From Rhodothermia bacterium (lineage in GTDB: Bacteria; Bacteroidota; Rhodothermia; Balneolales; Balneolaceae): DNA of 64,000 nucleotides. The position numbers and the translations under genes are program-made. The notes beneath the pieces are model-generated. The model was not told the origin of the DNA. It made no database searches and saw only the letters and a list, made by a program, of their open reading frames with translations. The stretch is from the NCBI GenBank assembly GCA_030427885.1, contig JAUICM010000003.1, positions 496,001 through 560,000 on the forward strand, read 5' to 3'. Shown here piece by piece: positions 30,695 to 45,488 of the stretch; position 1 is the first letter of the stretch; every line of letters begins with the position of its first letter.

Positions 30695-30754
30695 GGCTTT
30701 AAAACAAATGTACTAATATTGTAAGGAGTGTCTTTCTGATTGGTCTGACTTATC

Positions 30755-31072: not shown

Positions 31073-31823
31073 GCATACCTGCGAAGGATCTCGCCGGGAG
31101 TTTGGGTTTGACCATTTAAGATGCCCCTTCTTTTCTTTCATTCCCTTGTTCAAACTCCTTCCCATAATTTACAACTATTCATCTATCCGCTAAGGTTCTT
31201 CGGCAGTAGCCTCAGATTGACTGGGATATGGGCCGCCAAAATGATCCCATCCAACGTCATCCTGAGCATACCTGCGAAGGATCTCACTGGGTTTTTGTAA
31301 CTGATGGCTTAAAATAGCTCTGCTCTCTTATTATTTCCCCTGTTCAACTTCCTGCATTGCATTTAAAGTGAAGCACTTGTCCCCTAAGGTTCTTCTCCGC
31401 CAGCGGGCGGATCAGAATGACTGGGATATGGGCCGCCAGAATGATCCCATCCAAAGTCATCCTGAGCATACCTGCGAAGGATTTCACCGGGTTTTTGTAA
31501 CTGTGATGGCTTAAAATAGCTCTGCTCTCTTATTATTTCCCCTGTTCAACTTCCTGCACTGCATTTAAAGTGAAGCATTTATCCGCTAAGGTTCTTCTCC
31601 GCCAGCGGGCGGATCAGAATGACTGGTATATGGGCCGCCAAAATGACCCCATCCAACGTCATCCTGAGCGATTAGCGAAGGATCCCATCGGGTTTTTGTA
31701 ACTGTGATGGCTTAAAATAGCTCTGATCTCTTATTATTTCCCTGTTCAACTTCCTGCACTGCATTTAAAGTGAAGCATTTATCCGCTAAGGTTCTTCTCC
31801 GCCAGCAGGCAGATCAGAATAAC
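31058..31823. repeat. Four tandem copies of the ~180-200-bp repeat (copies 3-6)
   Basis: Copies begin near 31058, 31239, 31439 and 31639 and end near 31823. Copies 4-6 are linked by GGGCCGCCAAAATGATCCCAT-type spacers and differ by scattered substitutions. Copies 1 and 3 share one variant (GGTTCTTCGGCAGTAGCC), while copies 2, 4, 5 and 6 share another (TTCTTCTCCGCCAGC). This fills almost all of the 843-bp gap before metK; no gene is visible in it. Confidence 0.85.
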
Positions 31824-33078: not shown

Positions 33079-34041
33079 CTATAGGTGATCAACCGGGCTT
33101 TTAATGTAATTGCCGCTCTTGTTGATCACATGCGTATAAATCATCGTTGTTTTCAGGTTCTTGTGTCCCAGTAATTCCTGAACCGTTCTGATATCGTAGC
33201 CATTCCTGAGTAATTGTGTTGCAAACGAATGCCGGAACGTATGGCATGTGACTTTCTTTGTAATATTAGCAGATTCCACCGCCTTTTTGAGTTTTCTTTG
33301 AATCTGCCTTCCAGAAATGTGATACCGGTGTTCCATCCCTGACCGGGGGTCTCTTGTTATGGTAGCGGAGGGAAACAAATATTGCCATCCCAGATTTGTT
33401 TGCTCTGCCGGGTATTTTATGGCGAGGGCTTTAGGAAGTAATGCCTTTCCATATCCATCGGCAAGATCTTTTTGATGTATCATATTCACCTTCTTTATCT
33501 GCTTTCGAAGTTCAGGTGTACATTTTTTAGGGAGCAGGCTTACCCTGTCCCTGTTGCCTTTTCCCGAGCGAACCCATAGCTGGCCCTGTTCGAAGTCCAC
33601 ATCCTGAACCCGAAGTCTAAGACACTCTGAAATTCTTATTCCACTTCCATAAAGTAATTCACAGATCATCTGAGCGCGGCCACTAAGCTTTTCGAGAATA
33701 AACATTGCTTCATTGTGAGATAAGACCACAGGAAGCTTCTTCGGTTTTTTTGCCCGTTTCAGGTTATCGAGTTTCAGACTTTTCTTATGCAGCACCTGTT
33801 TGTACAAAAATACCAGCGCTGCCAGTGCCTGATTCTGTGTACTTGCAGCCACTTTCTTCTGGTTGGCCAAGTCATTCAGAAACTGCTCCACTTCTATATC
33901 ACCCAGGTTATTGGGGTGCACAGTGCCGTTCGATTTTATATACCGGATGATCCAGTTACAATAGGCCTGTTCGGTACGGTAACTATAATTTCTTCTTCTT
34001 ATCTCTTCTCTAACTTTTTCTAATAACTTTGATTTACCCAT
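33079..34041 (-). CDS. intI: Integron integrase (tyrosine recombinase)
   Basis: A 320-residue tyrosine recombinase with an N-terminal SAM-like core-binding domain (YSYRTEQAYCNWIIRYI). Its catalytic residues are all in place: Arg136 (YGSGIRISE), His267 and Arg270 (CHTFRHSFA), His293 (LLGH) and Tyr302 (MIYTH). The segment between residues ~200 and 245 (KALAIKYPAEQTNLGWQYLFPS...DPRSGMEHRYH) is the extra domain that separates IntI from XerC/D and binds the flipped attC bases. It is full length with no frameshift, so it may be active. It faces the cassette array divergently, as in classical integrons. Confidence 0.96.
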   Translation of the reverse strand: MGKSKLLEKVREEIRRRNYSYRTEQAYCNWIIRYIKSNGTVHPNNLGDIEVEQFLNDLANQKKVAASTQNQALAALVFLYKQVLHKKSLKLDNLKRAKKPKKLPVVLSHNEAMFILEKLSGRAQMICELLYGSGIRISECLRLRVQDVDFEQGQLWVRSGKGNRDRVSLLPKKCTPELRKQIKKVNMIHQKDLADGYGKALLPKALAIKYPAEQTNLGWQYLFPSATITRDPRSGMEHRYHISGRQIQRKLKKAVESANITKKVTCHTFRHSFATQLLRNGYDIRTVQELLGHKNLKTTMIYTHVINKSGNYIKSPVDHL

Positions 34042-34253
34042 AGTTGCTTGCCAATATTGATACTGTTACTATCTAAGTAAGACCGATGGGAATGGGATTC
34101 CTTACAACAACCGGAATATTATGCGACAAGGTTATATGACATTTTCATCGCTTTTAAAATGAAAAGATGCGTTTTGGACATGCTGAACAGAACTTACAGA
34201 ATTTTATACGACGTCTTATAAGCTAACCCCATTCGCATATTAATATGTTATGC
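34042..34253. promoter_or_regulatory. attI recombination region and intergenic promoters
   Basis: The space between intI and the first cassette. The first cassette joins at G34247 in GTTATGC. Immediately before the joint is a 12-bp perfect palindrome, CATATTAATATG (34236-34247), within GCATATTAATATGTTATGC. This is probably the simple core site of attI. AT-rich stretches nearby (34195-34225, TTTTATACGACGTCTTATAAG) could hold the cassette promoter Pc and the intI promoter, but I cannot fix -35 and -10 boxes. Confidence 0.7.
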
Positions 34254-34272
34254 TTTTTGTAAGATTTAAGCT

Positions 34273-34470
34273 ATGCGTGAATTTTTATCATTTTTAATCT
34301 CTTTGGTAATTTTGGGCATAATGATATTTGTCCAAATAAGAAACCAAGAAGTTTGGGCTTATTCTCCTATTAAAAAAGAAGACTACCCAAAGGCATATTA
34401 CCTCCTAATTGGCATGGAGTTAGTATTATTTTTTGTAGTCCTAATTTTTATAATTGGAATGTTTTCTTAA
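34273..34470 (+). CDS. Cassette 1: small two-helix membrane protein (65 aa)
   Basis: A 65-residue protein with two hydrophobic segments (residues ~5-22 and ~44-64) separated by a short polar stretch. It would be an inner-membrane hairpin. It begins 25 bp after the attI-cassette joint, so it is the cassette best placed for expression from a promoter in attI or intI. The cassette starts GTTATGCTTTTTG and its own attC is preceded by AAAAGCATAAC, which are complementary. Function is unknown. Confidence 0.65.
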   Translation: MREFLSFLISLVILGIMIFVQIRNQEVWAYSPIKKEDYPKAYYLLIGMELVLFFVVLIFIIGMFS

Positions 34471-34486
34471 ACATTAATAATCAAAA

Positions 34487-34576
34487 GCATAACAAGCGTT
34501 TCAAGCGGACTCGAACGCGATTCGGGTCGTTAATTTTAACCCCCAGGCTCGCCGCTTAAACGCCGGGTCGTTAGTA
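34487..34576 (+). repeat. attC1 (90 bp)
   Basis: Canonical member of the 90-bp attC class: R'' GCATAAC at the left, arms pairing with one unpaired base, right arm CCGCTTAAACGCCGGGTCG, cleavage expected after G34570. Confidence 0.93.
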
Positions 34577-34589
34577 GGCTTACTTAATC

Positions 34590-35042
34590 ATGAAGAAATT
34601 CATTTTACTTTTTTTCTTTGCCTTTCTATTTGTTGGTATCAGCAAAGCCTGCATTTGTGAAGAACAAACGCTTGAACAAAGAATTGAAAAGTATCACTTC
34701 ATTTTCATTGGCAATGTAATTTCGGTTGAAGATATCTTCAGTGACAGTACTTCAACTTGGCCTGACCAGCAAAGAATTGTTATTGAGATTGAGAAGAAGT
34801 TCAAAGGAAATCAAAGTGAACAAATAATAGTTGAATCTGAACTTTCAAGTTGTGCCTCATTCTTTGAAGAAGGGAAGAAATATTTAGTATTTGCAGGCCA
34901 CTCCATCACAAATGAAACTGAGATAAATGAAAACTTTGTGGCAACAAATAACAAAGTAGTAACTGGTAAGTGTTATGGAACAAGAGCAGTAGAGTTTTCA
35001 AAAAAAGAAATCCAAGAACTTGAAAATCATTACAATCAATAA
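34590..35042 (+). CDS. Cassette 2: secreted TIMP/NTR-like protein (150 aa)
   Basis: A 150-residue protein with a clear signal peptide (FILLFFFAFLFVGISKA) followed at once by Cys-Ile-Cys. Later come FIFIGNVISVED, SCASFFEEGKKYLVFAG and GKCYGTRAVEFS. A Cys-x-Cys at the mature N-terminus, a beta-barrel pattern and the late cysteines recall the netrin-like (NTR)/TIMP fold found in small bacterial secreted proteins. The resemblance is by pattern only. The cassette is bounded by attC1 and attC2. The gene starts 19 bp after the cassette joint. Confidence 0.65.
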   Translation: MKKFILLFFFAFLFVGISKACICEEQTLEQRIEKYHFIFIGNVISVEDIFSDSTSTWPDQQRIVIEIEKKFKGNQSEQIIVESELSSCASFFEEGKKYLVFAGHSITNETEINENFVATNNKVVTGKCYGTRAVEFSKKEIQELENHYNQ

Positions 35043-35055
35043 AAAGCATCCAGCC

Positions 35056-35145
35056 TACTAACAAGCGTTTCAAGCGGACTCGAACGCGGTTCGGGTCTTT
35101 AATTTTAACCCCGAGGCTCGCCGCTTAAACGCCGGGTCGTTAGGC
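35056..35145 (+). repeat. attC2 (90 bp)
   Basis: Left end TACTAAC, right arm with GCCGGGTCG, cleavage expected after G35139. The cassette start GTTAGTAGGC and the sequence before this site, GCCTACTAAC, are perfectly complementary. Confidence 0.93.
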
Positions 35146-35160
35146 GAATTAAAGAGATCA

Positions 35161-35583
35161 ATGGAAGAAAAACCTAATCGATACAAGCTTACCGAATATT
35201 GGGGAATAAGAGTTCTAGTTACTTGGTATTCGGCTTTTGTATTGATAGGATTATTATTCTTTGAATTGCCTGATGGAGTAATTATCCCATTATTGGGTGG
35301 CATTATGGCTGCCGTAGCAATACCAATGACTAGGCATGTGCTTAAGTTTCAGAAGCGTAACTCTGGGCACATGAAAAGAAGCCTCTATGACTCTGCTGTT
35401 TTCTTCTTTTGGTCCTTTGGGATTTTCGGTACTGCTTTTTTCCTGATTGGAGCTTTAATCTCAATTTTTAAAAGTAATGAGATCTTTGGGATATTCTTTT
35501 TTCTTTCATCGTCTCTTTTCCCATTAGGAATAGCCATCGGAGCTTCAAAACAGTGGGACATGCGAGATGTGTTCAAAACATAA
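35161..35583 (+). CDS. Cassette 3: four-helix membrane protein (140 aa)
   Basis: A 140-residue protein with four predicted membrane helices (about residues 17-34, 37-54, 78-101 and 107-124), joined by short charged loops such as MTRHVLKFQKRNSGHMKRS. There are no enzymatic motifs that I recognise. The gene begins 21 bp into the cassette, whose ends (GTTAGGCGAAT and ATTCGCCTAAC) are complementary. Function is unknown. Confidence 0.65.
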   Translation: MEEKPNRYKLTEYWGIRVLVTWYSAFVLIGLLFFELPDGVIIPLLGGIMAAVAIPMTRHVLKFQKRNSGHMKRSLYDSAVFFFWSFGIFGTAFFLIGALISIFKSNEIFGIFFFLSSSLFPLGIAIGASKQWDMRDVFKT

Positions 35584-35596
35584 ACTTAGTACATTC

Positions 35597-35686
35597 GCCT
35601 AACAAGCGTTTTAAGCGGACTCGTTTAGGGTTCGAAAGCTTAATTTTAAACCTCAGACTCGCCGCTTAAACGCGGGGTCGTTAGCT
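35597..35686 (+). repeat. attC3 (90 bp, variant centre)
   Basis: R'' GCCTAAC. The left arm has GCGTTTTAAGCGG and the centre ACTCGTTTAGGGTTCG, which it shares with attC15. The right arm reads CGCGGGGTCG, one base off the usual CGCCGGGTCG. Confidence 0.92.
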
Positions 35687-35715
35687 GTGCTTAATTCAAA
35701 GCTTATAACTGAAAG

Positions 35716-36126
35716 TTGAAATTGAACAGTCAAGAAATTTGGAATTGGACTAAAAAAAATAGCAAGTATCTATGGCCATTAATCATATTATTAATTGGGT
35801 GGATTGAATATTCATTTCAAGAAGCTCTATTAATATTGATAATTGTATACTTGTACATACTTGGCACTTTCGAAGTATTGAATTGTTTTATCCATATGAT
35901 TTTAAATGCAATCCAATTTAAATCTGTAAAGAACTCTTTTCAAAAAAATTATACTTCCAATAAATTGATTTTTCATTGTTCAATTTTGTTAGGAATAGTG
36001 CTTATTGCTAAAATTTTAGATAATGAATCAGGTATTAGAATTGCAATAGTTTTAGGAGTTACATTAGCAATTTTAGTTCATGTATATGCTGTAATATTCT
36101 CCTTAATTAAACCACCACACAGCTAA
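35716..36126 (+). CDS. Cassette 4: membrane protein (136 aa)
   Basis: A 136-residue protein with about four hydrophobic segments (near 18-30, 33-55, 88-100 and 108-131) and a polar N-terminus (QEIWNWTKKNSKY). The best start is TTG at 35716; no ATG fits. The stop codon TAA falls inside the R'' box of attC4 (AGCTAAC), so coding sequence and recombination site overlap by a few bases. Function is unknown. Confidence 0.6.
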   Translation: MKLNSQEIWNWTKKNSKYLWPLIILLIGWIEYSFQEALLILIIVYLYILGTFEVLNCFIHMILNAIQFKSVKNSFQKNYTSNKLIFHCSILLGIVLIAKILDNESGIRIAIVLGVTLAILVHVYAVIFSLIKPPHS

Positions 36127-36210
36127 CAAGCGTTTTAAGCGGACCCGAACGCAGTTCGGGTCTTTAATTTTAAACCCCAGACTCGCCGCTTAAACGCCGG
36201 GTCGTTATGT
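36121..36210 (+). repeat. attC4 (90 bp)
   Basis: R'' AGCTAAC contains the stop codon of cassette 4. Standard arms; cleavage expected after G36204. Confidence 0.93.
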
Positions 36211-36223
36211 GTAATCACAAATT

Positions 36224-36457
36224 ATGAGAAGTAAATCACTCAAAGATTACGAAGTCATTATTGGCAGTGATGTCAACGAAAGAGACGGCATTGGAATTGA
36301 AATTTGGTCAAAAGAACAACTCTTAATTGAGATCTTTAGAAATGATAAAAATGAAGAATACACGATCTCTGTTTTTGAAAAAGATCTTCCTTTAAGCCTT
36401 ATCGAAGAAGCTATCAAACGTTTTAAAAAAGAAATCCCAAGTGTATTCCAAAAGTAA
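36224..36457 (+). CDS. Cassette 5: small soluble protein (77 aa)
   Basis: A 77-residue charged soluble protein with no signal peptide. Predicted layout is two or three strands (YEVIIGSDVN, GIGIEIWSK, LLIEIFRND) and a C-terminal helix (LSLIEEAIKRFKKEI). This alpha/beta layout resembles small immunity or toxin-modifier proteins common in cassettes, but I cannot assign a family. The cassette ends show a 12-bp complementarity (GTTATGTGTAAT with ATTACACATAAC). The gene starts 19 bp from the joint. Confidence 0.6.
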   Translation: MRSKSLKDYEVIIGSDVNERDGIGIEIWSKEQLLIEIFRNDKNEEYTISVFEKDLPLSLIEEAIKRFKKEIPSVFQK

Positions 36458-36463
36458 CATTAC

Positions 36464-36553
36464 ACATAACAAGCGTTTCAAGCGGACTCGACCGCGGTTC
36501 GGGTCTTTAATTTTAAAACCCAGACTCGCCGCTTAAACGCCGGGTCGTTATAG
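36464..36553 (+). repeat. attC5 (90 bp)
   Basis: R'' ACATAAC, standard arms, cleavage expected after G36547. Confidence 0.93.
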
Positions 36554-36584
36554 CATTTTCAAGAAATCAATCGAGGAGGTTGTA

Positions 36585-37007
36585 ATGCGATTAATTATCT
36601 ATTCTATTTTCTTTTCGATATTGACACTTTCTGCCTGTTCAATTTTTTCAGATGGAGACAACTCTTCCTCTGATATTAATTTGGAATATCTGAATCAGCA
36701 TTGGGTTCATTCTTATGAAGAAGAATCTCAGGAAAGTGACGTAAATATATTTAGACCTAATGACTACAAGGAATTCCCACCGAGTCGGTTTAGAATGCAG
36801 TACATTTTTGAAGAAGATGGTTCATGCGAGTGGTTTTATCTTGCTCCAGATGATGGTCACCACTTTAGGTCAGGTAATTGGCGACTCGTTGCAGAAAACA
36901 ATGAAGACATTATCATTGAACGGGATGAAGACTTATTGCGATACCGCATAATCGAACTAAACGAAGAGATACTTCGCATGAAACTTATTGAATCTCAGCA
37001 AAACTAA
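36585..37007 (+). CDS. Cassette 6: lipoprotein, lipocalin-like pattern (140 aa)
   Basis: A 140-residue lipoprotein with lipobox LSACS. The mature part has alternating strands (RMQYIFEEDGSCEWFYLAP, SGNWRLVAENNEDIIIERDE, LRYRIIELNEEILRMKLIE), a pattern seen in small lipocalin-like lipoproteins. It has a good ribosome site (GAGGAGG) before the ATG. The cassette begins GTTATAGCATTTT and ends AAAATGCTATAAC, a perfect 13-bp match. Its attC is of a different family from its neighbours, suggesting a separate origin. Confidence 0.65.
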   Translation: MRLIIYSIFFSILTLSACSIFSDGDNSSSDINLEYLNQHWVHSYEEESQESDVNIFRPNDYKEFPPSRFRMQYIFEEDGSCEWFYLAPDDGHHFRSGNWRLVAENNEDIIIERDEDLLRYRIIELNEEILRMKLIESQQN

Positions 37008-37011
37008 AATG

Positions 37012-37140
37012 CTATAACAACCGCATTAACGGCGGACGCAGACTAGGCTTTAAATTAAATTTCTTGTCAATGATTGTTCAAATGTTTAGCCTTTTAAAAA
37101 ATCATAATCCCTGCGCCGGTTATGCGATAGGCCGTTATGC
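37012..37140 (+). repeat. attC6 (129 bp, divergent family)
   Basis: Left arm TAACAACCGCATTAACGGCGGACGCAG pairs with right arm CTGCGCCGGTTATGCGATAGGCC. Only the core TAAC/GTTA and overall geometry are shared with the other sites. Cleavage expected after G37134. The long AT-rich centre (37047-37110) would form the variable terminal structure. Confidence 0.85.
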
Positions 37141-37156
37141 AACCTAGTTTCAAATC

Positions 37157-37657
37157 TTGAAAAGAATTTTAAAATACATTGTGTTAGTTCTTGGTGGGGT
37201 TTTCCTATTGAATATGCTTACATGGTTTTTTTATGGTCAAGAACAAATTCTTCTTGTTGGAGCTAATGTTGAGGAAGTCGAAAGTTGGACTGGTAAAACT
37301 GATACCCTTTATCTATTTATTGGTGAAGTTGATCATGATAACTATAAACAATTTTCAGACTTTAATAGATCTAAAATTGAAGAACTAGTTATTGAGATAA
37401 ATAGAACAGGTCGCACAGCAATTATTGATGAGAGACCATTACCATTATTTGTTGAAAGCAATGAAGGTCAGGAATTACTTAATTCCAATGGTTCAGATGC
37501 ATTTTCTTACACAGTCCAAGTAGTTAACCCTTTTCCCATGGTTTCTAGAGTTTATAAATTAATATGGGTACCGGGCTTCGGAACTGATAGAGAGCATCTT
37601 TACATCTGGTTTTTTAAATGGTTCTGTGTTAAAGATCTTGGGGGCGGTGTTTCATAA
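37157..37657 (+). CDS. Cassette 7: membrane-anchored protein (166 aa)
   Basis: A 166-residue protein with one N-terminal hydrophobic segment (YIVLVLGGVFLLNMLTWFF, residues ~7-26) and a soluble domain outside. It starts with TTG at 37157. The C-terminal part contains aromatic clusters (YKLIWVPGFGTDREHLYIWFFKWF) that may lie on the membrane. I do not recognise a family. Cassette start GTTATGCAACC and end GGTTGCCTAAC pair with one mismatch. Confidence 0.6.
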   Translation: MKRILKYIVLVLGGVFLLNMLTWFFYGQEQILLVGANVEEVESWTGKTDTLYLFIGEVDHDNYKQFSDFNRSKIEELVIEINRTGRTAIIDERPLPLFVESNEGQELLNSNGSDAFSYTVQVVNPFPMVSRVYKLIWVPGFGTDREHLYIWFFKWFCVKDLGGGVS

Positions 37658-37667
37658 TGTTTCGGTT

Positions 37668-37797
37668 GCCTAACAAGCGTTTCAAGCGGACTCTCCCCTA
37701 CTCTGTCAGCTGACGGATTCGGAGAGCAGGCGAACAAGTTTCTAAACTTTAATTACATTCACGCAGGGCTCGCCGCTTAAACGCCGGGTCGTTAGTG
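37668..37797 (+). repeat. attC7 (130 bp)
   Basis: Standard outer arms but a longer centre with its own hairpin (CTCTCCCCTACTCTGTCAG...). Cleavage expected after G37791. Confidence 0.9.
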
Positions 37798-37809
37798 GGC
37801 TAAGTAATC

Positions 37810-38220
37810 ATGAGCATTTTAAAATCTCTTTTACTCTTATTGGTTTTACTTGTTTTCACTGGTGACTTACTTGCACAGCAACAGGAGTTCAACCTACTTC
37901 AGGAACCTATTCCAAAAGGTTATTACGCTGATGATATTTATCCAAACCCTTATGGCTTTACTACAAGTACAAAGTTCTACTCCCCAGACTCAGCTTTTGT
38001 TGAAATAATTGTTTTAAATGATTCTGATGAAGAAGTAACAGAGATTTATAGCGGCTTCATTGCGCCTGGTGTTTACTTTGTTGGCTGGAATTTAAAAAAT
38101 AGCAATGGAAATAGAGTTCCTCATGGAATTTATAGATTTAAAATTTCAGCACATTCTAAATTAAACCTGACTGAAACTAAGTTTGAAGCCTTTGTTAATT
38201 TGCCCATTATCCCTGACTAG
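37810..38220 (+). CDS. Cassette 8: secreted Ig-like protein (136 aa)
   Basis: A 136-residue protein with a signal peptide (SLLLLLVLLVFTGDLLAQQ). The mature domain has the beta pattern IYPNPYGFTTSTKFYSPDSAFVEIIVLNDSDEEVTEIYSG...YFVGWNLKNSNGNRVPHGIYRFKI. This strongly resembles the FlgD-like/C-terminal Ig-like domain in Bacteroidota secreted proteins (WDGKNSNGxxVPSGVYxY pattern). Here that domain stands alone. It is likely periplasmic or surface exposed. Function is unknown. Confidence 0.7.
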   Translation: MSILKSLLLLLVLLVFTGDLLAQQQEFNLLQEPIPKGYYADDIYPNPYGFTTSTKFYSPDSAFVEIIVLNDSDEEVTEIYSGFIAPGVYFVGWNLKNSNGNRVPHGIYRFKISAHSKLNLTETKFEAFVNLPIIPD

Positions 38221-38232
38221 TTTAGCTCCGCC

Positions 38233-38378
38233 CACTAACAAGCGTTTTAAGTCGGACCCTGATCTTCATCAGTGCAGGCTCCGGTAGGGTTCGCTGGAAA
38301 GCTTGTGAGCAATAAAATAAATCAGTTACTTCAACAAAAACCGAAAACCTGCGCCGCTTAAACGCCGGGTCGTTATAA
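38233..38378 (+). repeat. attC8 (146 bp, long-centre subfamily)
   Basis: Outer arms are standard; the centre carries the AGCTTGTG...CAGTTACTTCAAC block that also occurs in attC12 and attC13. Cleavage expected after G38372. Confidence 0.9.
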
Positions 38379-38386
38379 GTCATTCG

Positions 38387-38782
38387 ATGCTTAAACAACT
38401 TTTGGAAATTGGCTTTAGAAAGGTAGGCGACGTAAGACTCGTTGATAAAGGTCTTTACATTGAAATAACCGAAGAAGCTGAATCTAGAAATATTCTGTAT
38501 TCATTCGTGGTTGATGGAGAACCAGTATATGTAGGCAAAACAACTCAGCCACTTAAAAAGCGAATGTATGGATATAAAAATCCGGGTAGTACTCAGGCAA
38601 CTAATATTCGAATTAACTCGAATTTAATTACTGCCATAAAAAAAGGATCTATCATAGATATTTTTGCCCTTCCTGATCATGGGCTGCTACACTTTGGAAT
38701 TTTTCATTTAAATTTGGCAGCAGGTCTAGAAGATAACATTGTCAAGCAACTTGCACCAAAATGGAACATGACAGGAAAATGA
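38387..38782 (+). CDS. Cassette 9: GIY-YIG-like domain protein (131 aa)
   Basis: A 131-residue protein with a GIY-YIG nuclease core. ILYSFVVDGEPVYVGKTTQPLKKRMYGYKNPG supplies the two Tyr-containing strands and the catalytic Arg. LEDNIVKQLAPKWN carries the late acidic residue and the typical PxWN end. A short N-terminal region precedes it. It could cleave nucleic acid and may be a defence or mobile-DNA nuclease. It is unrelated in length and context to the repeat-borne GIY-YIG protein at 30755. The gene begins 15 bp into the cassette. Confidence 0.75.
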   Translation: MLKQLLEIGFRKVGDVRLVDKGLYIEITEEAESRNILYSFVVDGEPVYVGKTTQPLKKRMYGYKNPGSTQATNIRINSNLITAIKKGSIIDIFALPDHGLLHFGIFHLNLAAGLEDNIVKQLAPKWNMTGK

Positions 38783-38783
38783 C

Positions 38784-38909
38784 TTATAACAAGCGTTTCA
38801 AGCGGACTCCCCGCCTGTTCCTTGGGGAACAGCGGGGCAGGCGAACTTGTCTACGCGCCATTAATATAAATCAACCACGGCTCGCCGCTTAAACGCCGGG
38901 TCGTTAGCC
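38784..38909 (+). repeat. attC9 (126 bp)
   Basis: Standard outer arms; centre with a GC-rich hairpin (CCCCGCCTGTTCC...GGAACAGCGGGG). Cleavage expected after G38903. Confidence 0.9.
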
Positions 38910-38920
38910 AAACTTTAAGA

Positions 38921-39739
38921 ATGAAATCTTTATTTGTAGTCTGCTTATTAATACTACTTGTTGGCTGTTCAGAAAACAGAAAACATTTTGAAAATTTACA
39001 GGGTGACTGGAGGGGTATTGAATCAGGTGAGTTTCAATTCTATGCAAATGTCTCTGGAGATAGCATTCTCTTAAATGATTTTTACTATCAAAAGTTCAAG
39101 GTCTATGATGATTCAATAATTGTTTTCTTAGATGATCCTTATAAATCGAGGATTACTTACAAAGAAGTTACTCAACACGTTTTTTATATCAAGGAATTGA
39201 CAGATTCAAATATTGAATTAGAAACAGTAGTTGAACAACGACAAAGAAGGGTTAACGATTTTAAATTAGATACGATACGATTTCGACTAGAGCGGTTTAA
39301 ACCGAAAAGAAATAAACCAAAGCTAGTTAGAATAGAGTTTTCTTCTGGCGAATGTTATTACGGAGGTTGTCCGCAAAGAAATATAATCATCGACAGTTCA
39401 GGATATTTTTACTATGAACCTGTAGAAAATGTAAATGTCGATACAACTTTTGAAAGCTATAAAGCCAAACCTTTTTTTAGAGATTTATCTTTAATCGTTT
39501 CATCAATTCCAACCGATTACATAGAGTCGTTGGATGGAATTACAATGCATGCTCAAGTACTATATACAAAGCTTTTTTTCGATAATGGGCTTGAATTAAG
39601 TTTTTTCACGGATCATGAAAACAATTTATTTCCTTTATTTTCGAAATTGGAACATTCATTGGACTTTATAGAAGGATTGAGTCCAGCAGACAAGATTAAT
39701 TTCTCAATTCGAGATACTCTTGATAATTATCCACTTTAA
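38921..39739 (+). CDS. Cassette 10: lipoprotein with DUF6438-like domain (272 aa)
   Basis: A 272-residue lipoprotein with lipobox LVGCS (Cys16). The first ~120 mature residues form an extracytoplasmic beta domain (LQGDWRGIESGEFQFYANVSG). Residues ~145-260 (LVRIEFSSGECYYGGCPQRNIIIDSSGYFYYE...FFRDLSLIVSSIPTDYIES) resemble the DUF6438 pattern with its C-x4-C motif. Function of that family is unknown. The cassette lies between attC9 and attC10. Confidence 0.65.
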   Translation: MKSLFVVCLLILLVGCSENRKHFENLQGDWRGIESGEFQFYANVSGDSILLNDFYYQKFKVYDDSIIVFLDDPYKSRITYKEVTQHVFYIKELTDSNIELETVVEQRQRRVNDFKLDTIRFRLERFKPKRNKPKLVRIEFSSGECYYGGCPQRNIIIDSSGYFYYEPVENVNVDTTFESYKAKPFFRDLSLIVSSIPTDYIESLDGITMHAQVLYTKLFFDNGLELSFFTDHENNLFPLFSKLEHSLDFIEGLSPADKINFSIRDTLDNYPL

Positions 39740-39752
39740 ACTAAAACCGTTT

Positions 39753-39866
39753 GGCTAACAAGCGTTTCAAGCGGATCCGCCGGCGGTCGGACACAGCTCT
39801 GATAACGCGGTTCGGGTCTTTAATTTTAACCCCCAGACTCGCCGCTTAAACGCCGGGTCGTTATGT
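39753..39866 (+). repeat. attC10 (114 bp)
   Basis: A 90-bp-type site with a ~24-bp extra block (GGATCCGCCGGCGGTCGG region) in the left half. Cleavage expected after G39860. Confidence 0.9.
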
Positions 39867-39875
39867 GCTTTAACT

Positions 39876-40217
39876 ATGAAGATCGTCAAAATAAATACTG
39901 ATGATATTATAGACTGGGATTCATTCCATGATCTATTTTCCAAAAAATTTGGCTTTCCCAAGTTCTATGGAAAAAATATGAATGCATGGATTGATTGTAT
40001 GACTTCACTAGATTCTCCAGATGATGGAATGACTTCAATTCATACGAGTAAAGGAGAAACCATTATTATTGAATTAGAAAATGTGTCCTCATTGGCAACT
40101 AGAAATAGAGAAATTTATGATGCTATCATTGAATCCTCTGCCTTTGTTAACTATAGAAAAATTGAACTTGGAGAACCCGCTGTTCTTACACTATCATTTC
40201 ATAAAACTCGCACATAA
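39876..40217 (+). CDS. Cassette 11: barstar-like protein (113 aa)
   Basis: A 113-residue protein matching the barstar fold. It has a first helix (DWDSFHDLFSKKFGFPKFYGKNMNAWIDCMTSL) carrying the family's FPxFYGKNxxAWxD motif. Strands and helices follow (TIIIELENVSS, ATRNREIYDAIIESSAFVNYR). Barstar inhibits the ribonuclease barnase; barstar-like genes without a nuclease partner occur in integron arrays. No barnase-type toxin is encoded next to it. Its stop codon lies in the R'' box of attC11. It starts 16 bp into the cassette. Confidence 0.82.
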   Translation: MKIVKINTDDIIDWDSFHDLFSKKFGFPKFYGKNMNAWIDCMTSLDSPDDGMTSIHTSKGETIIIELENVSSLATRNREIYDAIIESSAFVNYRKIELGEPAVLTLSFHKTRT

Positions 40218-40301
40218 CAAGCGTTTCAAGCGGACTCGAACGCGATTCGGGTCTTTAATTTTAAATCCCAGGCTCGCCGCTTAAACGCCGGGTCGTTATG
40301 T
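40212..40301 (+). repeat. attC11 (90 bp)
   Basis: R'' ACATAAC holds the barstar-like gene's stop codon. Standard arms; cleavage expected after G40295. Confidence 0.93.
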
Positions 40302-40323
40302 TGCTTATCATAAATATGAATTA

Positions 40324-40779
40324 ATGCCACTTATAAAATCACTAAAGAAAAATTCTGGGGTTTATCTCTTACACGTATTTTTTATTGTTGTAATTGCACC
40401 AATGGTAGCTGGTTCTTTTGCGGGACTATATGAGATAATTTATGAATCAAATGGACAGGGATTTGTTAATCAAATTGGTAGAATTATTGGTGGAGCAATT
40501 TTCACTCCTATTTTCGGTATAATTTTTAGCTTCCCTCTTTCAATTTTTTCTTTATTTATCTTCAAACTACTAATGGATTGGGATCAAAATAGACTACTCT
40601 ACTTTTGTTTGGTTGGTGGCTCTTCTGGAGTGGCAATTTATTCGGTTTACTATTTTATGGATGAAAATAATGGTCTAGCACTTTTTCTTATTCTATCATT
40701 TGTTGGGGTAGCAATCGGTTATTTCTTGTCATTTATATGGAAAGATGGTTACACAAAAACTAAATTATCAGCAACATAA
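40324..40779 (+). CDS. Cassette 12: four-helix membrane protein (151 aa)
   Basis: A 151-residue protein with about four membrane helices (residues ~13-35, 52-80, 90-110 and 118-140). It has no catalytic motif that I recognise. The stop codon overlaps R'' of attC12. Cassette ends (GTTATGTTGC and GCAACATAAC) are perfectly complementary. The start ATG is 28 bp from the joint. Function is unknown. Confidence 0.6.
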   Translation: MPLIKSLKKNSGVYLLHVFFIVVIAPMVAGSFAGLYEIIYESNGQGFVNQIGRIIGGAIFTPIFGIIFSFPLSIFSLFIFKLLMDWDQNRLLYFCLVGGSSGVAIYSVYYFMDENNGLALFLILSFVGVAIGYFLSFIWKDGYTKTKLSAT

Positions 40780-40897
40780 CAAGCGTTTCAAGTCGTACGC
40801 AGGTAGGATTCGCTGGCAAGCTTGTGAGCAATAAAAATATTCAGTTACTTCAACAAAAACCGAGAACCTGCGCCGCTTAAACGCCGGGTCGTTAGCC
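40774..40897 (+). repeat. attC12 (124 bp, long-centre subfamily)
   Basis: Left arm CAAGTCG instead of CAAGCGG; centre with AGCTTGTGAGC and CAGTTACTTCAAC shared with attC8 and attC13. Cleavage expected after G40891. Confidence 0.9.
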
Positions 40898-40911
40898 GAA
40901 TTAAATACACT

Positions 40912-41505
40912 TTGAAAAATAATTCCTTTCGAATCATAGCATTGTTTGAAGTACTTGGAGGGGTTCTTCTTACACTGGAAATAATTGAGTATTTCACTTT
41001 TTACATCGGTCTTGAAAATTATTTAGCTGCAGCTCTCAGCCTCCTGTTTTTAATTCCCTCCTTGTCACTTGTGTATGGAGGCTATTTATTGTGGAACTAT
41101 AAACAGCGGGGTTTCCTACTATCAATGTTAGGTCAAGGGTTTCAAGCTGTCTTTTTTTCAACACCTTGGTTTTCATATACAATGTTATCCCCTATTGCTA
41201 TTACATTTTTCTGGAATACAAACTCTGACTTCTTATTTAATTTCCGCTTTGCTACAGACTTCACATTCTGGTTTAGTAGTCCATTACCATATTCAGAATT
41301 TGGTATAAATTTTCTAAGTATTGGCTTCATTATTTACTTATTTCGTCCATTCCAACTACTTAAAGAATATGGCAGACTACCAAGAAAACTAAAATGTTAT
41401 AATTGTAACACAAGCTATGGCTGGGATGCTAAATTTGAAGCATTGGAATTTAAATGTGATTACTGTAATGAAATTGTCAAGTATGAAAAAGAATCATTCG
41501 GCTAA
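40912..41505 (+). CDS. Cassette 13: membrane protein with C-terminal zinc ribbon (197 aa)
   Basis: A 197-residue protein starting with TTG at 40912. Four or five hydrophobic segments fill residues ~6-150 and include aromatic loops (FFSTPWFSYTMLSP). The last ~40 residues are a cytoplasmic zinc ribbon with four cysteines in two CxxC pairs (CYNC and CDYC). The stop falls in the R'' box of attC13. Such membrane plus zinc-ribbon layouts are known but unassigned. Function is unknown. Confidence 0.65.
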   Translation: MKNNSFRIIALFEVLGGVLLTLEIIEYFTFYIGLENYLAAALSLLFLIPSLSLVYGGYLLWNYKQRGFLLSMLGQGFQAVFFSTPWFSYTMLSPIAITFFWNTNSDFLFNFRFATDFTFWFSSPLPYSEFGINFLSIGFIIYLFRPFQLLKEYGRLPRKLKCYNCNTSYGWDAKFEALEFKCDYCNEIVKYEKESFG

Positions 41506-41623
41506 CAAGCGTTTCAAGTCGGACGCAGGTAGGGTTCGCTGGAAAGCTTGTGGTCAATAAAAATATTCAGTTACTTCAACAAAAAACGAAAACCTGCGCC
41601 GCTTAAACGCCGGGTCGTTATGC
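41500..41623 (+). repeat. attC13 (124 bp, long-centre subfamily)
   Basis: Near twin of attC12, with the same centre block; right arm GCCGGGTCG. Cleavage expected after G41617. Confidence 0.9.
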
Positions 41624-41636
41624 AACAAGTCAATTA

Positions 41637-42287
41637 ATGAAACCTGTAGTTTTAATTAATAAATACGTTGAATCTTATCTTGTCAATGAATTAAAGTCTT
41701 ATGGATATTCATATTCTGCTTCAAAAATCAGGTTCAGAAAGAATATCGATAAGAAAATATTGGGTATTGATTTTTGGCGATCCAAGTGGAACAAAGAAGA
41801 TGTTTTAAGTGAATTCTGGATAGATTGCGGAATTAATTCAACCTATTATTCAAAATGGGTGTTTGACAGATACGGAATAAAAAAAGTGAATGACAATATT
41901 CTTGGAATTCAATGCCATACAATCAAGGGTTGGGATAAAACTGGTATGAACAGAATTCACAGGTATAATCTAGTTAGTGATAACCCAGATCAGTTAATGA
42001 ACATCATCAAAAACAATTTCTTAAATATTTTAGTCCCATTTCTAGAAAACTACACTAGTTGGAAACGTGCTGCTGACACAATTTTGAAACAAGCAAAGTT
42101 TAAACAAGAATATATCAAAGCTTCAGACTTCTATATTTTATCTGACCTTCCAGAAAAGGGATTTGAGCCATTACTTATAGCAAAAGAATATTTAATGAAG
42201 AAAATTGAAGAAGATCCACATCCCAATTTTTATAAATGGATAGATGAGATCGATATGAGATTAAAAATAAATTACAATGTTAACTAA
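41637..42287 (+). CDS. Cassette 14: soluble protein of unknown function (216 aa)
   Basis: A 216-residue soluble protein without signal or membrane segment. The first half is beta-rich (KIRFRKNIDKKILGIDFWRSKW, SEFWIDCGINSTYY), the second helical. The opening pattern, a variable helix followed by basic strands and a W/F-rich core, loosely resembles DUF4304-type proteins, but I would not assert it. Cassette start GTTATGCAAC and end GTTGCCTAAC pair with one mismatch. The gene begins 19 bp after the joint. Confidence 0.6.
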   Translation: MKPVVLINKYVESYLVNELKSYGYSYSASKIRFRKNIDKKILGIDFWRSKWNKEDVLSEFWIDCGINSTYYSKWVFDRYGIKKVNDNILGIQCHTIKGWDKTGMNRIHRYNLVSDNPDQLMNIIKNNFLNILVPFLENYTSWKRAADTILKQAKFKQEYIKASDFYILSDLPEKGFEPLLIAKEYLMKKIEEDPHPNFYKWIDEIDMRLKINYNVN

Positions 42288-42293
42288 TCAGTT

Positions 42294-42383
42294 GCCTAAC
42301 AAGCGTTTCAAGCGGACTCGAACGCGGTTCGGGTTCTTAATTTTAAACTCCGGGCTCGCCGCTTAAACGCCGGGTCGTTATAG
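42294..42383 (+). repeat. attC14 (90 bp)
   Basis: R'' GCCTAAC, standard arms, cleavage expected after G42377. It precedes the Septu-like cassette. Confidence 0.93.
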
Positions 42384-42411
42384 AGCCTTTTAAACTCAAA
42401 GAGTAGACATT

Positions 42412-43656
42412 ATGCAGTTCAAGCATTTAAAAATAAAGGAATGGAAACAGTTTGAAGATTTAGACCTATCATTTCATTCCAACCTCACAGTTCTGACTGG
42501 TGCAAATGGAGCAGGCAAAACTACCCTTCTTAATTTGCTTGCCCAGCATTTCGGCTGGAATTTTCGAGAACTTGCAACCCCTGCTAAAGATAAAAAAACT
42601 GGTGGATTTAGATTCTTCACAAGATTTTTTAAAAAGCCTTTCAGTTTATTTTCTAGTGAACAAACAAACGAAAATCAAATTGGCTCATTAACTTATAGTA
42701 ATGGTCATTCTTCACCTTTAATTATTCCAGATTCTGATTCACCTCAATACAAAATTCAGATACAGAGCCAACAAAAAGTAAGTGGCTTCAATATCCATTC
42801 ACATAGACCATTATTTAGTTATGCCAATGTTCCACATATACCAATTAAGAAGAGAACGGCACGTCAGGCTTTTGATCTTGTTTCACAAAGTAGCAGACAA
42901 AGAATATTTGGTAATGAAAGACAACCACTAAATTTCCATATCAAAGAAACACTATTACTGTGGGCTAATCAAGGGTATGAAAGTGCCGTTCAAGAACCTG
43001 ATGAACAATCAAGAATCTATTATGAAGGATTTCAAGTAGTTTTAAAAAAGATACTTCCTGAAACACTGGGGTTTATCGAATTTAAAATTCGTTCGGGCGA
43101 AATAGTTATGATATGTAAATCTGGTGATTTTATGCTTGATGCAGTATCAGGCGGTGTTGGTGCTTTAATTGACTTAGCTTGGAAAATATATTTAGTGGAC
43201 CTTGAAGAAGATCAGCCAATCACAATATTAATTGATGAAGCTGAAAACCATCTGCATGCTTCAATGCAAAGGGAGATGTTACCGAATTTTATATCTGCTT
43301 TTCCAAATGTCCAATTTATTGTTTCAACACACAGTCCATTAATAATTGGTTCGGTAAAGGACTCGAACGTTTATGCCTTGAGATATGAAGAAAATGAATT
43401 AGGTGAAAATAAGGTTGTTAGCCAACTTTTGGATCTTGAGAATAAGGCTAAAAATGCTACTGAAATTTTGAATGAAGTTCTTGGCGTTTCATTCACAATG
43501 CCAATTTGGGTTGAAGGTACATTAAAACAGATTGTTGCTAAGTACTCTTCCGAGGAAATGGATGAAAATACTTTTGAAAAAATGAGAAGTGAATTACAAG
43601 AGATTGGTTTAGAAGATTTAATGCCATTAGCTATAAAAAATGTTCTAGGTAAGTAA
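42412..43656 (+). CDS. ptuA-like: Cassette 15, gene 1: Septu PtuA-like AAA/ABC-type ATPase (414 aa)
   Basis: A 414-residue SMC/ABC-type ATPase. Walker A is GANGAGKT (residues 30-37). The signature-like motif is VSGGVGAL (from 245), Walker B ITILIDEAENHLH (Asp275-Glu276), and the switch histidine His307 is in VSTHSPL. A long insert separates Walker A from the signature, as in OLD/PtuA-type ATPases. With an HNH gene 2 bp downstream it forms the two-gene layout of Septu anti-phage systems. In Septu the ATPase senses infection and controls the PtuB nuclease. The pair fills one cassette, so this is unusually long cargo. Confidence 0.82.
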   Translation: MQFKHLKIKEWKQFEDLDLSFHSNLTVLTGANGAGKTTLLNLLAQHFGWNFRELATPAKDKKTGGFRFFTRFFKKPFSLFSSEQTNENQIGSLTYSNGHSSPLIIPDSDSPQYKIQIQSQQKVSGFNIHSHRPLFSYANVPHIPIKKRTARQAFDLVSQSSRQRIFGNERQPLNFHIKETLLLWANQGYESAVQEPDEQSRIYYEGFQVVLKKILPETLGFIEFKIRSGEIVMICKSGDFMLDAVSGGVGALIDLAWKIYLVDLEEDQPITILIDEAENHLHASMQREMLPNFISAFPNVQFIVSTHSPLIIGSVKDSNVYALRYEENELGENKVVSQLLDLENKAKNATEILNEVLGVSFTMPIWVEGTLKQIVAKYSSEEMDENTFEKMRSELQEIGLEDLMPLAIKNVLGK

Positions 43657-43658
43657 TT

Positions 43659-44306
43659 ATGATTCAACTAAACAAGAATGGCGAGCCTCCTGTTTTAACA
43701 GCGAATAAAGATGCTTGGAAAAATGAACTGATGGGGTATATACAAAGGGGAGAAAAAATACCATCATCAGTATCAAATAGATATAACAAAACTGAAGTAA
43801 AAGAATCACTGAGACAAGAGTCTTATAGTAAATGCATCTATTGTGAGAGCAATGTTCAACACATTTCATATGAACATATTGAACACATAAAACCAAAAGC
43901 TAGAGATAAATATCCTGAATTAACCTTTGAGTATGAGAATCTTGGATTATCCTGCCCTAAATGTAATATGAATAAGGGGGCAGAGTATGATGAGAATGTA
44001 CCTTATATCAATCCATTTGTTGACAATCCTGAAAATCATTTTAAAGCAATTGGTGCATTAATTTGGGCTTTGCCAGGTGATAGACGGGCTAGATTAACTG
44101 AATTAGATATTGAATTAAATCGTCCTGAGCTTCTTGAAGTTCGAAGAGAAAGATTAAATAGCATTAGAAGCTTAGTCGAAATATATAATCAAGAAACGAA
44201 CCAAAGACTCAAACAATCTTTGAAAAATGAGATTGAAACTGAGATCGGAGAAGATAAACCATACTCATTTATTACAAGTAAACTTGTTGAGGCACTCTTG
44301 AATTAA
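43659..44306 (+). CDS. ptuB-like: Cassette 15, gene 2: Septu PtuB-like HNH nuclease (215 aa)
   Basis: A 215-residue HNH endonuclease. Zinc-binding pairs Cys59/Cys62 (CIYC) and Cys99/Cys102 (CPKC) flank the core EHIEHIKPKARDKYPELTFEYENLGLSCPKCNMNKG, with catalytic His76 and Asn94. This IEHIKPK...ENL..SC..CN..KG pattern is that of the nuclease paired with ATPases in Septu and retron-Eco7/Ec78 systems. The ATG lies 2 bp after the ATPase stop, so translation is coupled. It would cleave nucleic acid when the ATPase is triggered. Confidence 0.85.
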   Translation: MIQLNKNGEPPVLTANKDAWKNELMGYIQRGEKIPSSVSNRYNKTEVKESLRQESYSKCIYCESNVQHISYEHIEHIKPKARDKYPELTFEYENLGLSCPKCNMNKGAEYDENVPYINPFVDNPENHFKAIGALIWALPGDRRARLTELDIELNRPELLEVRRERLNSIRSLVEIYNQETNQRLKQSLKNEIETEIGEDKPYSFITSKLVEALLN

Positions 44307-44330
44307 GCCTAACTCAAAATGAAACCGGCT

Positions 44331-44420
44331 CTATAACAAGCGTTTCAAGCGGACTCGTTTAGGGTTCGGAACTTTAATGACTAAAACCAGGCTCGCCGCT
44401 TAAACGCCGGGTCGTTATGT
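44331..44420 (+). repeat. attC15 (90 bp, variant centre)
   Basis: R'' CTATAAC; centre CTCGTTTAGGGTTCG as in attC3. Cassette start GTTATAGAGCC and the bases before this site, GGCTCTATAAC, are complementary over 11 bp. Cleavage expected after G44414. Confidence 0.92.
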
Positions 44421-44442
44421 TGCTTCAACTAAACTTGTAAAC

Positions 44443-44703
44443 ATGTCAGAAAAAGTAGATTCATTCGATTCTTTTTTGAAGTTTTTAAAAGCCTCGGAGG
44501 AAGATCGAAAGAAGTCCGTGGCACTTGAGGCAGAGAAGCCTTCTTCGCCTTTTGGACCGGATGCAGGTGGTTGGGAAAATACATCTATTGAAAGTTTTCT
44601 CGAATCTATGAGAGCTTGGTTAACTGACAGCCAGGACAAAAATGTATCTCCCTCTTGGGAGTTGTTTGCAGAAGCAATCATGGCTGGAAAAACCTATGAA
44701 TAG
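44443..44703 (+). CDS. Cassette 16: small acidic protein, DUF7660-like (86 aa)
   Basis: An 86-residue soluble acidic protein. The second half (GGWENTSIESFLESMRAWLTDSQ...SWELFAEAIMAGKTYE) has the W-x-N...FL-x2-M-x-AW...W-x-x-FA...G-x-x-YE pattern that I associate with the DUF7660 family, which often occurs in integron cassettes and beside polymorphic toxins. The function is unknown; an immunity role has been imagined for similar small proteins. It starts 28 bp after the cassette joint. Its attC is broken downstream. Confidence 0.65.
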   Translation: MSEKVDSFDSFLKFLKASEEDRKKSVALEAEKPSSPFGPDAGGWENTSIESFLESMRAWLTDSQDKNVSPSWELFAEAIMAGKTYE

Positions 44704-44706
44704 GTA

Positions 44707-44735
44707 ACATAACAAGCGTTTCAAACGGACTTACT
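44707..44735 (+). repeat. attC16, truncated
   Basis: The left half (ACATAAC, CAAGCGTTTCAAACGGACT) is intact, then the sequence departs and no right arm CGCCGGGTCGTTA follows. Cassette 16 should therefore be unable to excise alone. Confidence 0.8.
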
Positions 44736-44981: not shown

Positions 44982-45488
44982 CCTTCTTGTTTAAGGGCTG
45001 ATATTTTACCAAGCGAGGGGTTTCAACCCCGAGTTCTCAGAATCTAATATACTACACCACCCTTCACGAGGAGGCTTAAATTATTACCTGTCTCTTCCTT
45101 TCCCGACGAAGTGATCTCCTTAACAATGCCCCTAAACACATTCCCTGAGATTGCTTCGTCGATAAAGATCTAATTCTATAGTTAAAATCTATACTCCTCG
45201 CAACGACCGGGCTTCTATTATTCCATTTCCGGGTTTTCTAAGTTCTGCACCCCTCTATCTCCTTCTTGTTTAAGGACTCGTATTTTTAACAAACGAGGGG
45301 TTTCAACCCCGAGTTCTCAGAATCTAATATACTACACCGCCCTTCACGAGGAGGCTTAAATTATTACCAGTCTCTTCCTTTTCCCTACGAAGTGATCTCC
45401 TTAACAATGCCCCTAAACATATTCCCTGAGATTGCTTCGTCGATAAAGATCTAATTCTATAGTTAAAATCTATACTCCTCGCAACGAC
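44982..45488. repeat. Two direct copies of a ~226-bp repeat
   Basis: Copy A (44982-45207) and copy B (45261-45488) are nearly identical and separated by 53 bp. Each starts CCTTCTTGTTTAAG, holds the palindrome GGGGTTTCAACCCC and an inverted pair CGACGAAG...CTTCGTCG, and ends CTCCTCGCAACGAC. No gene is visible in them; with the remnant before, they fill 44714-45499. Confidence 0.88.

Follow-up and report, generated by a model that had tools for sequence, protein, structure and literature searches.

A chromosomal integron of the Balneolaceae and dispersed attI-like sites that head cassette arrays away from its integrase gene

The window analysed here is a stretch of 64,000 nucleotides from a Rhodothermia bacterium of the family Balneolaceae (assembly GCA_030427885.1, contig JAUICM010000003.1, positions 496,001 to 560,000), which carries at positions 33079-44735 an integron made of an integrase gene (intI), an attI recombination site and 16 gene cassettes bounded by attC sites (Table 1). 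The usual description of an integron has a single integrase with one attI and one array, and arrays found elsewhere are read as debris or as off-target insertions. In this genome and among its relatives, attI-like sites without an adjoining integrase gene (orphan sites) head cassettes at other chromosomal places, and it is probable, judging from sequence, that a single integrase (IntI) serves several dispersed copies of attI in trans. The observations on which this proposal is built are the anatomy of the locus, the cassette joints at orphan sites, the copies of the attI module lacking intI and the sequence that differs between species past the crossover. Taken alone, the array of the window adds one more member to the known integrons; the dispersed attI copies are the new aspect.

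A profile search of the window's genome returned a single IntI above the cut-off, yet attC sites were found at seven places, which was counted in favour of action in trans. A first attC model gave 38 matches at E-values up to 10, 33 of them below 1e-6, distributed over the main array (15), contig C10 (9; C-numbers denote contigs of this genome), the start of C8 (3), C2 (2), C3 (2), C5:569047 (1) and C5:323023 (1). With at least two attC sites below 1e-6 and no integrase nearby, C10 (9), C2:670k (2), C8:1 (3) and C3:12k (2) qualify as clusters of attC sites lacking integron integrases (CALINs), and C5:569k and C5:323k hold one strong attC apiece. No IntI was found in the fetched flanks of these arrays, where only a Xer-like gene was present, at C10. 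Its product, a tyrosine recombinase, was considered as a second, reversed IntI and rejected, as it groups with two other Xer-like rows.

The first-cassette joints at C10, C2:670549, C3:12903 and C5:568459 have a 20-bp flank common to all four and to the main attI. Head and tail of the first cassette agree in runs of 11, 10 and 13 at C10, C2:670549 and C5:568459, respectively, and at 10 of 12 positions at C3:12903, where the AAC has decayed. Searched with up to three mismatches, the pattern TTCGCATAATACTATGTTA had 11 matches in the genome and one for its reversed control; since it was derived from one of the four joints outside the main cluster, those joints match by construction. Seven matches stood at two mismatches or fewer, namely the main attI joint, the four extra joints, C3:117 and C2:233711. 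The five joints, main and extra, stand 255-694 bp ahead of attC sites. At C3:117, an orphan core leads into the opening bases of cassette 13, where the contig ends; the start of another contig, C8:1-183, holds the closing part of this cassette together with its attC, at 96.7% identity to the copy in the window. Judged by these two contig ends, cassette 13, thirteenth in the main array, is very probably also the first cassette at an orphan site (C3/C8).

Relatives of the window's genome gave a larger set. A search of 146 genomes for the attI core with up to two mismatches placed most sites in genera g1, g4 and g17 (reversed control, 0-5 per genome), and one genome, G017, held four exact sites (G-numbers denote genomes and L-numbers fetched loci). 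Outside the window's genome, at least 62 cores with no more than one mismatch were listed, of which five were main attI sites, two lay beside a truncated IntI and 55 were others. Forty of these at least 55 orphan cores, i.e. cores without an adjoining IntI, were fetched, chosen by pattern alone, with about 0.8 kb upstream and up to 5 kb or more downstream; they are not independent, loci shared between species being counted separately. The 40 regions held no IntI match at 1e-5, and 30 had attC downstream on the same strand. At these 30 cores, 171 of 210 positions of the cassette ends matched (permuted mean 74.5, standard deviation 7.9, maximum 106), and an end match of at least 8 of 11 was found in 28 (permuted mean 7.0, maximum 16). 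Additionally, thirteen IntI queries revealed no IntI remnant, at E-values up to 0.05, upstream of 50 orphan sites, 42 from relatives and eight from the window's own genome; as a positive control, three main loci gave about 1e-133 or better among the matches listed.

Five orphan loci were common to different species, with identities of 0.71-0.89 from -800 to -200. Seven species comparisons of shared orphan loci showed the last 60 bp before the crossover to be 77-98% identical and the 150 bp beyond it to be at the shuffled level. A sixth shared locus, from two very close genomes, held the same cassette, and the pair L207:1388 with L198 was not counted as shared (0.52 beyond -200). A conserved flank with differing sequence past the crossover is how a site that keeps receiving cassettes would be expected to look.

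In some relatives the likeness to the resident attI extended well beyond the core. One orphan site of G039 was 98.9% identical over 181 bp to the main attI of that genome and another 88.6% over 185 bp, both ending at the crossover. Both also begin at the same (G)TTATATT, which lies 28 bp from intI and 178 bp ahead of the crossover; the 98.9% copy sits directly at the crossover of an older attI, the junction G being missing. An orphan site of G031, starting at GTTATCC, was 97% identical to its own main attI over 134 bp, again ending at the crossover, and one of G003 was 83.5% identical over 91 bp at a site without an attC match. The leader of the window matched the two G039 copies at 73-74% over 175-178 bp and, together with intI, the main loci of G039 and G050 at about 70% over 800 bp; the core, or a close form of it, adjoins intI in several relatives as the resident attI. 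The attI of genus g7 is quite different, and 11 genomes (ten of g7 and one of g14) were searched with one attI of this type. Two further copies ending at the crossover were found in G074 (79% and 78% over 160 bp) and one in G072 (70% over 133 bp), all three with attC matches downstream; other matches were main leaders or, in G024, a part stopping short of the crossover.

Likewise, attI copies were found in two Pseudoalteromonas genomes and are thus not confined to this clade. Pseudoalteromonas amylolytica carries an 82% copy over 338 bp of its own intI leader and attI, followed by a cassette-like unit whose ends match over 9, and no IntI was found within 12 kb of it at E-values up to 1. With the attI of P. 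fuliginea as query, its own genome yielded three further copies and that of P. amylolytica another two; tails match at three of the five (10, 11 and 11 of 11; next best 8), and the other two are decayed. The attC model found no attC on copies L246 and L267-L271, and it sees Pseudoalteromonas attC poorly (in L266, the main array, 4 matches at E-values up to 0.041). One Pseudoalteromonas attI, searched in five genomes, gave no match in P. fuliginea, Xanthomonas pisi, Luteimonas and Lysobacter; as the query was not their own attI, this is hardly a control. Some of the attI copies may be relics of whole integrons.

Recombination by IntI of a folded attC with a double-stranded attI is established for other integrons. 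In the working proposed here, IntI would bind double-stranded attI at 34232-34250 and recombine it at G34247 with the folded bottom-strand attC of a circular cassette; new cassettes would enter beside intI and the array would grow away from it. The same IntI would insert cassettes at all orphan attI-like sites in trans, and the integron would in effect be spread over several chromosomal docking sites. That this IntI performs the orphan insertions, and still does so, we infer from the cassette joints at these sites and from the sequence turnover beyond them. A further step is tentative and, in our judgement, rather doubtful: attI may itself be mobile, a module that IntI would move as it moves cassettes although it holds no gene, bounded on the left by a GTT in the intI leader and on the right by the crossover. 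A single integrase would then seed new docking sites, and many bacterial CALINs would be such satellites, not dead integrons. The available text of two reports describes recombination by IntI1 of attI with attI and with attI-like sites (PMC4792948, PMC10127599). Such attI x attI recombination makes movement of attI by IntI itself possible; the few boundaries at hand do not show it, and the mode in which attI modules were copied is our deduction.

Several observations weigh against action in trans at orphan attI copies. Ten of the 40 fetched orphan cores had no attC match and two more fail the end match (4 of 11). At two of the five shared loci, the cassette of one partner is unproven: L214 agrees at 4 of 11 end positions, and L207 has no attC match. 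The search with the g7-type attI gave orphan copies reaching the crossover in just two of 11 genomes, seven of which had no match, and TTCGCATAATACTATGTTA is not enriched in genus g7 (at least 12 matches vs at least 18 for the control). The orphan sites of the window's own genome resemble the main attI over just the last 60 bp or so. Among them C2:233711 is doubtful, as no matching tail was found and its sole attC candidate is weak (E 0.12); C5:324153 and C8:26794 (3 mismatches each) look like decayed joints near attC matches, no attC and no matching tail were found at C12:248270 (3 mismatches), and C5:113550 (3 mismatches) looks like chance. One genome, G057 (L197), carries two orphan attI cores and nine attC matches, two of them weak, with no IntI above the cut-off, so that arrays do not prove a living integrase.

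A rival explanation is that an ordinary integron is accompanied by CALINs left from complete integrons which lost their integrase genes, the attI copies being their remains. More than one IntI does occur in some relatives (three above the cut-off in G054), a truncated IntI is found some 200 bp away from each of two cores outside the 40 fetched (G017:C74:2423 and G059:C16:31320), and in Pseudoalteromonas a decayed P. fuliginea copy (L267) lies beside an IntI-like stretch of 30 residues (E 0.002) and the L246 copy extends to the start of intI. Certain orphan sites thus are, or may be, integrons in decay, which also tells against the action in trans. We consider this origin unlikely for the arrays as a whole, given the lack of IntI remnants upstream of the 50 orphan sites, even beside the 98.9% attI copy, and given that the two G039 copies end at the same base short of intI within unrelated flanks. 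The orphan sites shared by species run into different sequence, which would need insertion after intI had gone from there.

Insertion of cassettes at attG sites was reportedly shown by Loot 2024. IntI could be inserting at many degenerate genomic sites of the attG type, the attI-like ones being only its best targets. Insertion at attG sites appears in the available text of PMC12901181 and PMC12444791, attI-like sites are said, in the part of PMC10127599 at hand, to be frequent across genomes, and the short likeness of the own-genome orphan sites to the main attI is in keeping with this account. However, attG sites are strongly divergent from classical att sites by the description in PMC12901181, as far as its available text goes, whereas the attI core is common to the orphan sites, which in some relatives match the resident attI over 134-185 bp; they are thus not attG sites in this sense. 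Likeness of such length (G039, G031, G074) points to copying and not to convergence, and attG-type insertion is accordingly quite improbable as a general account. Least credible of all, and hardly to be entertained, is that the cores are Xer/dif-like or promoter repeats with cassettes nearby by accident, unrelated to IntI. The core resembles the dif sequence of E. coli, it holds a TATAAT-like string, and 280-bp repeats lie near some sites; but the cassette heads begin at one fixed base of the core and match their own tails in 28 of 30 cases, and several relatives have this core next to intI as their resident attI. Action of one IntI on dispersed attI copies is thus the reading retained here.

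The integron of the window, on which this reading depends, has an integrase gene with a stop-free frame, whose product scored 436.6 bits against TIGR02249 (cut-off 265) in a profile search. Its scores with the Xer equivalog models were far under their cut-offs (XerC, 163.9 vs 335.15; XerD, 151.4 vs 329.6). Arg136, Lys161, His267, Arg270, His293 and Tyr302 are invariant columns of an alignment of 11 IntI sequences (the window and ten relatives). An intact IntI with Arg136, His267, Arg270, His293 and Tyr302, as claimed in an initial annotation made from the sequence alone, is borne out by this score and these columns. In a tree of 79 rows, whose named outgroup comes from a sample of 80 named loci, with every second named outgroup row dropped, two excepted, the protein grouped with IntI and not with Xer, next to three relatives (support 100/99). 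A group with support 94/98 unites 32 IntI rows of the order and contains no row from another phylum; three rows of the same class sit outside it. IntI above the TIGR02249 cut-off was found in 70 of the 146 genomes of the clade, the window's own counted. A promoter scan for Pc gave five consensus matches vs 2.5 (standard deviation 1.7) in shuffles. The gene metK near intI occurs also at the fetched locus L130, which is not a count, most loci reaching less than 1 kb on that side.

The array beside intI lies on a contig of 619782 bases in a lineage that keeps its integrase, IntI is distinct from XerC and XerD, the attI crossover adjoins intI, and the attC array has R and L boxes and a hairpin. 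On this anatomy, the region 33079-44735 belongs to the sedentary chromosomal integrons; its integrase is intact and would move its cassettes. The initial annotation had reached the same class, and both the anatomy and the grouping of IntI support it. Its remark that few such arrays have been characterised agrees with the available text of PMC9024848, in which IntegronFinder 2.0 reported a complete integron in Bacteroidetes for Salinibacter ruber M1, and with our literature search for papers containing both 'integron' and 'Balneolaceae', which found none.

Table 1. Features of the integron, with positions in the window; each cassette is given with its open reading frame (ORF) and attC site
Feature	Position	Strand	Remarks
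intI, integron integrase, 320 amino acids, intact	33079..34041	-	TIGR02249, catalytic residues, IntI clade
leader from intI to crossover (attI module)	34042..34247	+	resembles attI leaders of relatives over about 180 bp
attI core TTCGCATATTAATATGTTA	34232..34250	+	crossover after G34247; head of cassette 1 = own tail, 11/11; core repeated elsewhere in genome
cassette 1	34248..34570	+	ORF 34273-34470; attC 34487-34576
cassette 2	34571..35139	+	ORF 34590-35042; attC 35056-35145
cassette 3	35140..35680	+	ORF 35161-35583; attC 35597-35686
cassette 4	35681..36204	+	ORF 35716-36126, TTG start; attC 36121-36210
cassette 5	36205..36547	+	ORF 36224-36457; attC 36464-36553
cassette 6	36548..37134	+	ORF 36585-37007; attC of different family 37012-37140; 13-nt head/tail match
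cassette 7	37135..37791	+	ORF 37157-37657; attC 37668-37797; head and tail differ at position 5
cassette 8	37792..38372	+	ORF 37810-38220, FlgD_ig, PF13860 35.8 bits (cut-off 27); attC 38233-38378
cassette 9	38373..38903	+	ORF 38387-38782, GIY-YIG-like below cut-off, PF01541 14.1 bits of 22.6; attC 38784-38909
cassette 10	38904..39860	+	ORF 38921-39739, DUF6438-like, below cut-off; attC 39753-39866
cassette 11	39861..40295	+	sole assigned ORF 39876-40217, barstar family, PF01337 53.9 bits (cut-off 23.4); attC 40212-40301
cassette 12	40296..40891	+	ORF 40324-40779; attC 40774-40897
cassette 13	40892..41617	+	ORF 40912-41505; attC 41500-41623
cassette 14	41618..42377	+	ORF 41637-42287, DUF4304-like, below cut-off; attC 42294-42383; head and tail differ at position 5
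cassette 15, 2037 bp, two genes	42378..44414	+	ptuA 42412-43656; ptuB 43659-44306; attC 44331-44420
cassette 16	44415..44735	+	ORF 44443-44703, DUF7660, PF24693 42.5 bits (cut-off 27); R''-L'' attC half from 44707

The attC sites of the array comprise 14 of one family, one of a different family (in cassette 6) and an R''-L'' half-site. The motif TAACAAGCGTTTYAA had 17 matches in the window at up to two mismatches vs 0.31 expected, and 15 of these were exact, all inside the array. A covariance model trained on 115 attC sites from the window and 17 loci of relatives recovered each complete site with an E-value of at most 2.1e-12, all 15 being in its training set. Two-sided changes were seen in 12 of 16 stem pairs of the 115 sites, which none of 500 shuffles reached, and 95.1% of the stem cells were paired vs 84.7% in shuffles; the alignment had been pre-fitted to the first stem model, which favours the covariation result. 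Folding of single sites as bottom-strand DNA was modest (z -0.5 to -3.0), and for the attC at 39753 the minimum fold differs from the attC fold. A search of the window against Rfam gave no match, but to our knowledge Rfam is without any attC family, so that this says little. The initial annotation had listed 15 complete attC sites and one truncated, 16 cassettes all reading away from intI, and an attI joint. Motif, covariance model and covariation confirm the sites, whose coordinates are correct, and the covariance-model check that it had proposed recovered all 15 complete ones, with the model built here and the sites in its training set; count and orientation are right, and the joint falls at G34247, where head and tail of cassette 1 agree.

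Cassette boundaries are backed, as read from the sequence, by head-tail complementarity. Fourteen of the 16 cassettes have an unbroken head/tail match over 8-13 bases, from G^TTA, complementary to the end of R''; in cassettes 7 and 14, head and tail differ solely at position 5 within the first 10 bases. Both of these cassettes (window 37134 and 41617) begin with GTTATGCAAC and have tails GTTAGGCAAC, with the same lone mismatch. Over 134 cassettes from the own genome and relatives, a set which excludes attC pairs without GTT or AAC at the expected place, positions 5-11 matched in 94, 91, 96, 93, 89, 81 and 72%, vs 57, 40, 45, 40, 36, 48 and 35% after permuting ends within loci; position 12 matched in 38% vs 25%, and later positions were near the permuted level. 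Complementary ends specific to each cassette were considered as a new feature and rejected, ends of 9-11 nt in most cassettes being already described in the available text of PMC2727003. At the centre of the first attC (window 34508-34528), a hairpin of 8 bp with a T-rich run behind it on the cassette strand was scored terminator-like, and other 90-nt attC sites of the array seem, by eye, to carry the same hairpin, which could separate cassettes transcriptionally.

Most cassette products are small proteins with no family match above cut-off. Cassette 15 encodes adjacent proteins of the Septu type I defence system, the ATPase PtuA (PADLOC PDLC00290, 538.5 bits, 3.5e-162), with a Walker A motif GANGAGKT, and the HNH nuclease PtuB (PDLC00337, 240.6 bits, 4.1e-72). 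Both are under the NCBIfam retron-Ec78 equivalog cut-offs (115.9 of 500 and 51.5 of 150 bits). Defence systems in cassettes are described as streamlined to small size in the text available of PMC12409362, and a full Septu of two genes is a sizeable load for one cassette. Concerning its source, a weak PtuA match in G142 (35% over 132 residues) was the only one among the 145 relatives, 393 other genomes sampled from the phylum gave none at 1e-60, and the best plasmid matches were 42-44% identical. The cassette proteins are hardly shared with 20 loci of relatives and eight loci of the own genome; just two matches came up, a weak one for cassette 1 and, in the own genome, one for the end of cassette 13.

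Several repeats and one gene block were noted around these arrays. Two copies of a repeat of about 280 bp lie at window 45004-45488, just past the distal end of the array. Its other genome matches at 1e-5 (C5:568164-568318, C3:13061-13306 and C5:571393-571508) each have, no more than about 2 kb away, attC sites that follow an orphan attI, and shorter pieces occur elsewhere, e.g. at window 48347-48400. A 200-bp repeat has six matches at window 30333-31823, three of them in tandem at 31212-31820, and none elsewhere in the genome at 1e-5; its copies flank on both sides a small gene (30755-31072), GIY-YIG-like by eye. Within the integrase-less array of contig C10 (L147, 4666-8154), a block of six ORFs, about 3.8 kb free of attC, seems by eye to include a short-chain dehydrogenase as well as a sigma-factor-like protein.

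If attI copies do act in trans as satellites, cassette storage would be a genome-wide network with several first positions, and looking for the resident attI at the head of a CALIN would be a cheap test of its nature. The genome also adds a clade in which complete integrons are hardly recorded, and a two-gene Septu carried as a cassette. Known Septu systems share both proteins, PtuA and PtuB, with cassette 15, which differs in being a 2037-bp two-gene cassette; our literature search found no paper devoted to Septu carried as a cassette. It found no report of attI copies heading integrase-less arrays either, the main attG paper lying outside the search, so that prior notice is possible. Recombination of attI with attI or attI-like sites by IntI1, in the available text of PMC4792948 and PMC10127599, is akin in using two double-stranded attI and offers a possible route for movement of the attI module. 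It differs, like the delta-attI cassettes of PMC12901181, in concerning a class 1 integrase in laboratory or plasmid settings, and a dispersed natural family of attI heading arrays is not described in the portions of these sources at hand. Cassettes at attG sites are likewise inserted outside the integron, by the description of citing papers as far as available; those sites are presented in the accessible text of PMC12901181 as strongly divergent from classical att sites, whereas the sites reported here are copies of attI. CALINs resemble the arrays found here as attC arrays without intI, said in the available part of PMC12444791 to be mobilisable in trans; the published descriptions compared, in the parts available, have no attI at CALINs, whereas recognisable attI modules head the present ones. 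Finally, sedentary chromosomal integrons (Vibrio, Xanthomonas; Salinibacter ruber M1) agree with the present one in intI, attI, attC array, orientation and an integrase lineage kept in the order, and the difference lies in the extra attI copies which, here, have cassettes at other chromosomal places.

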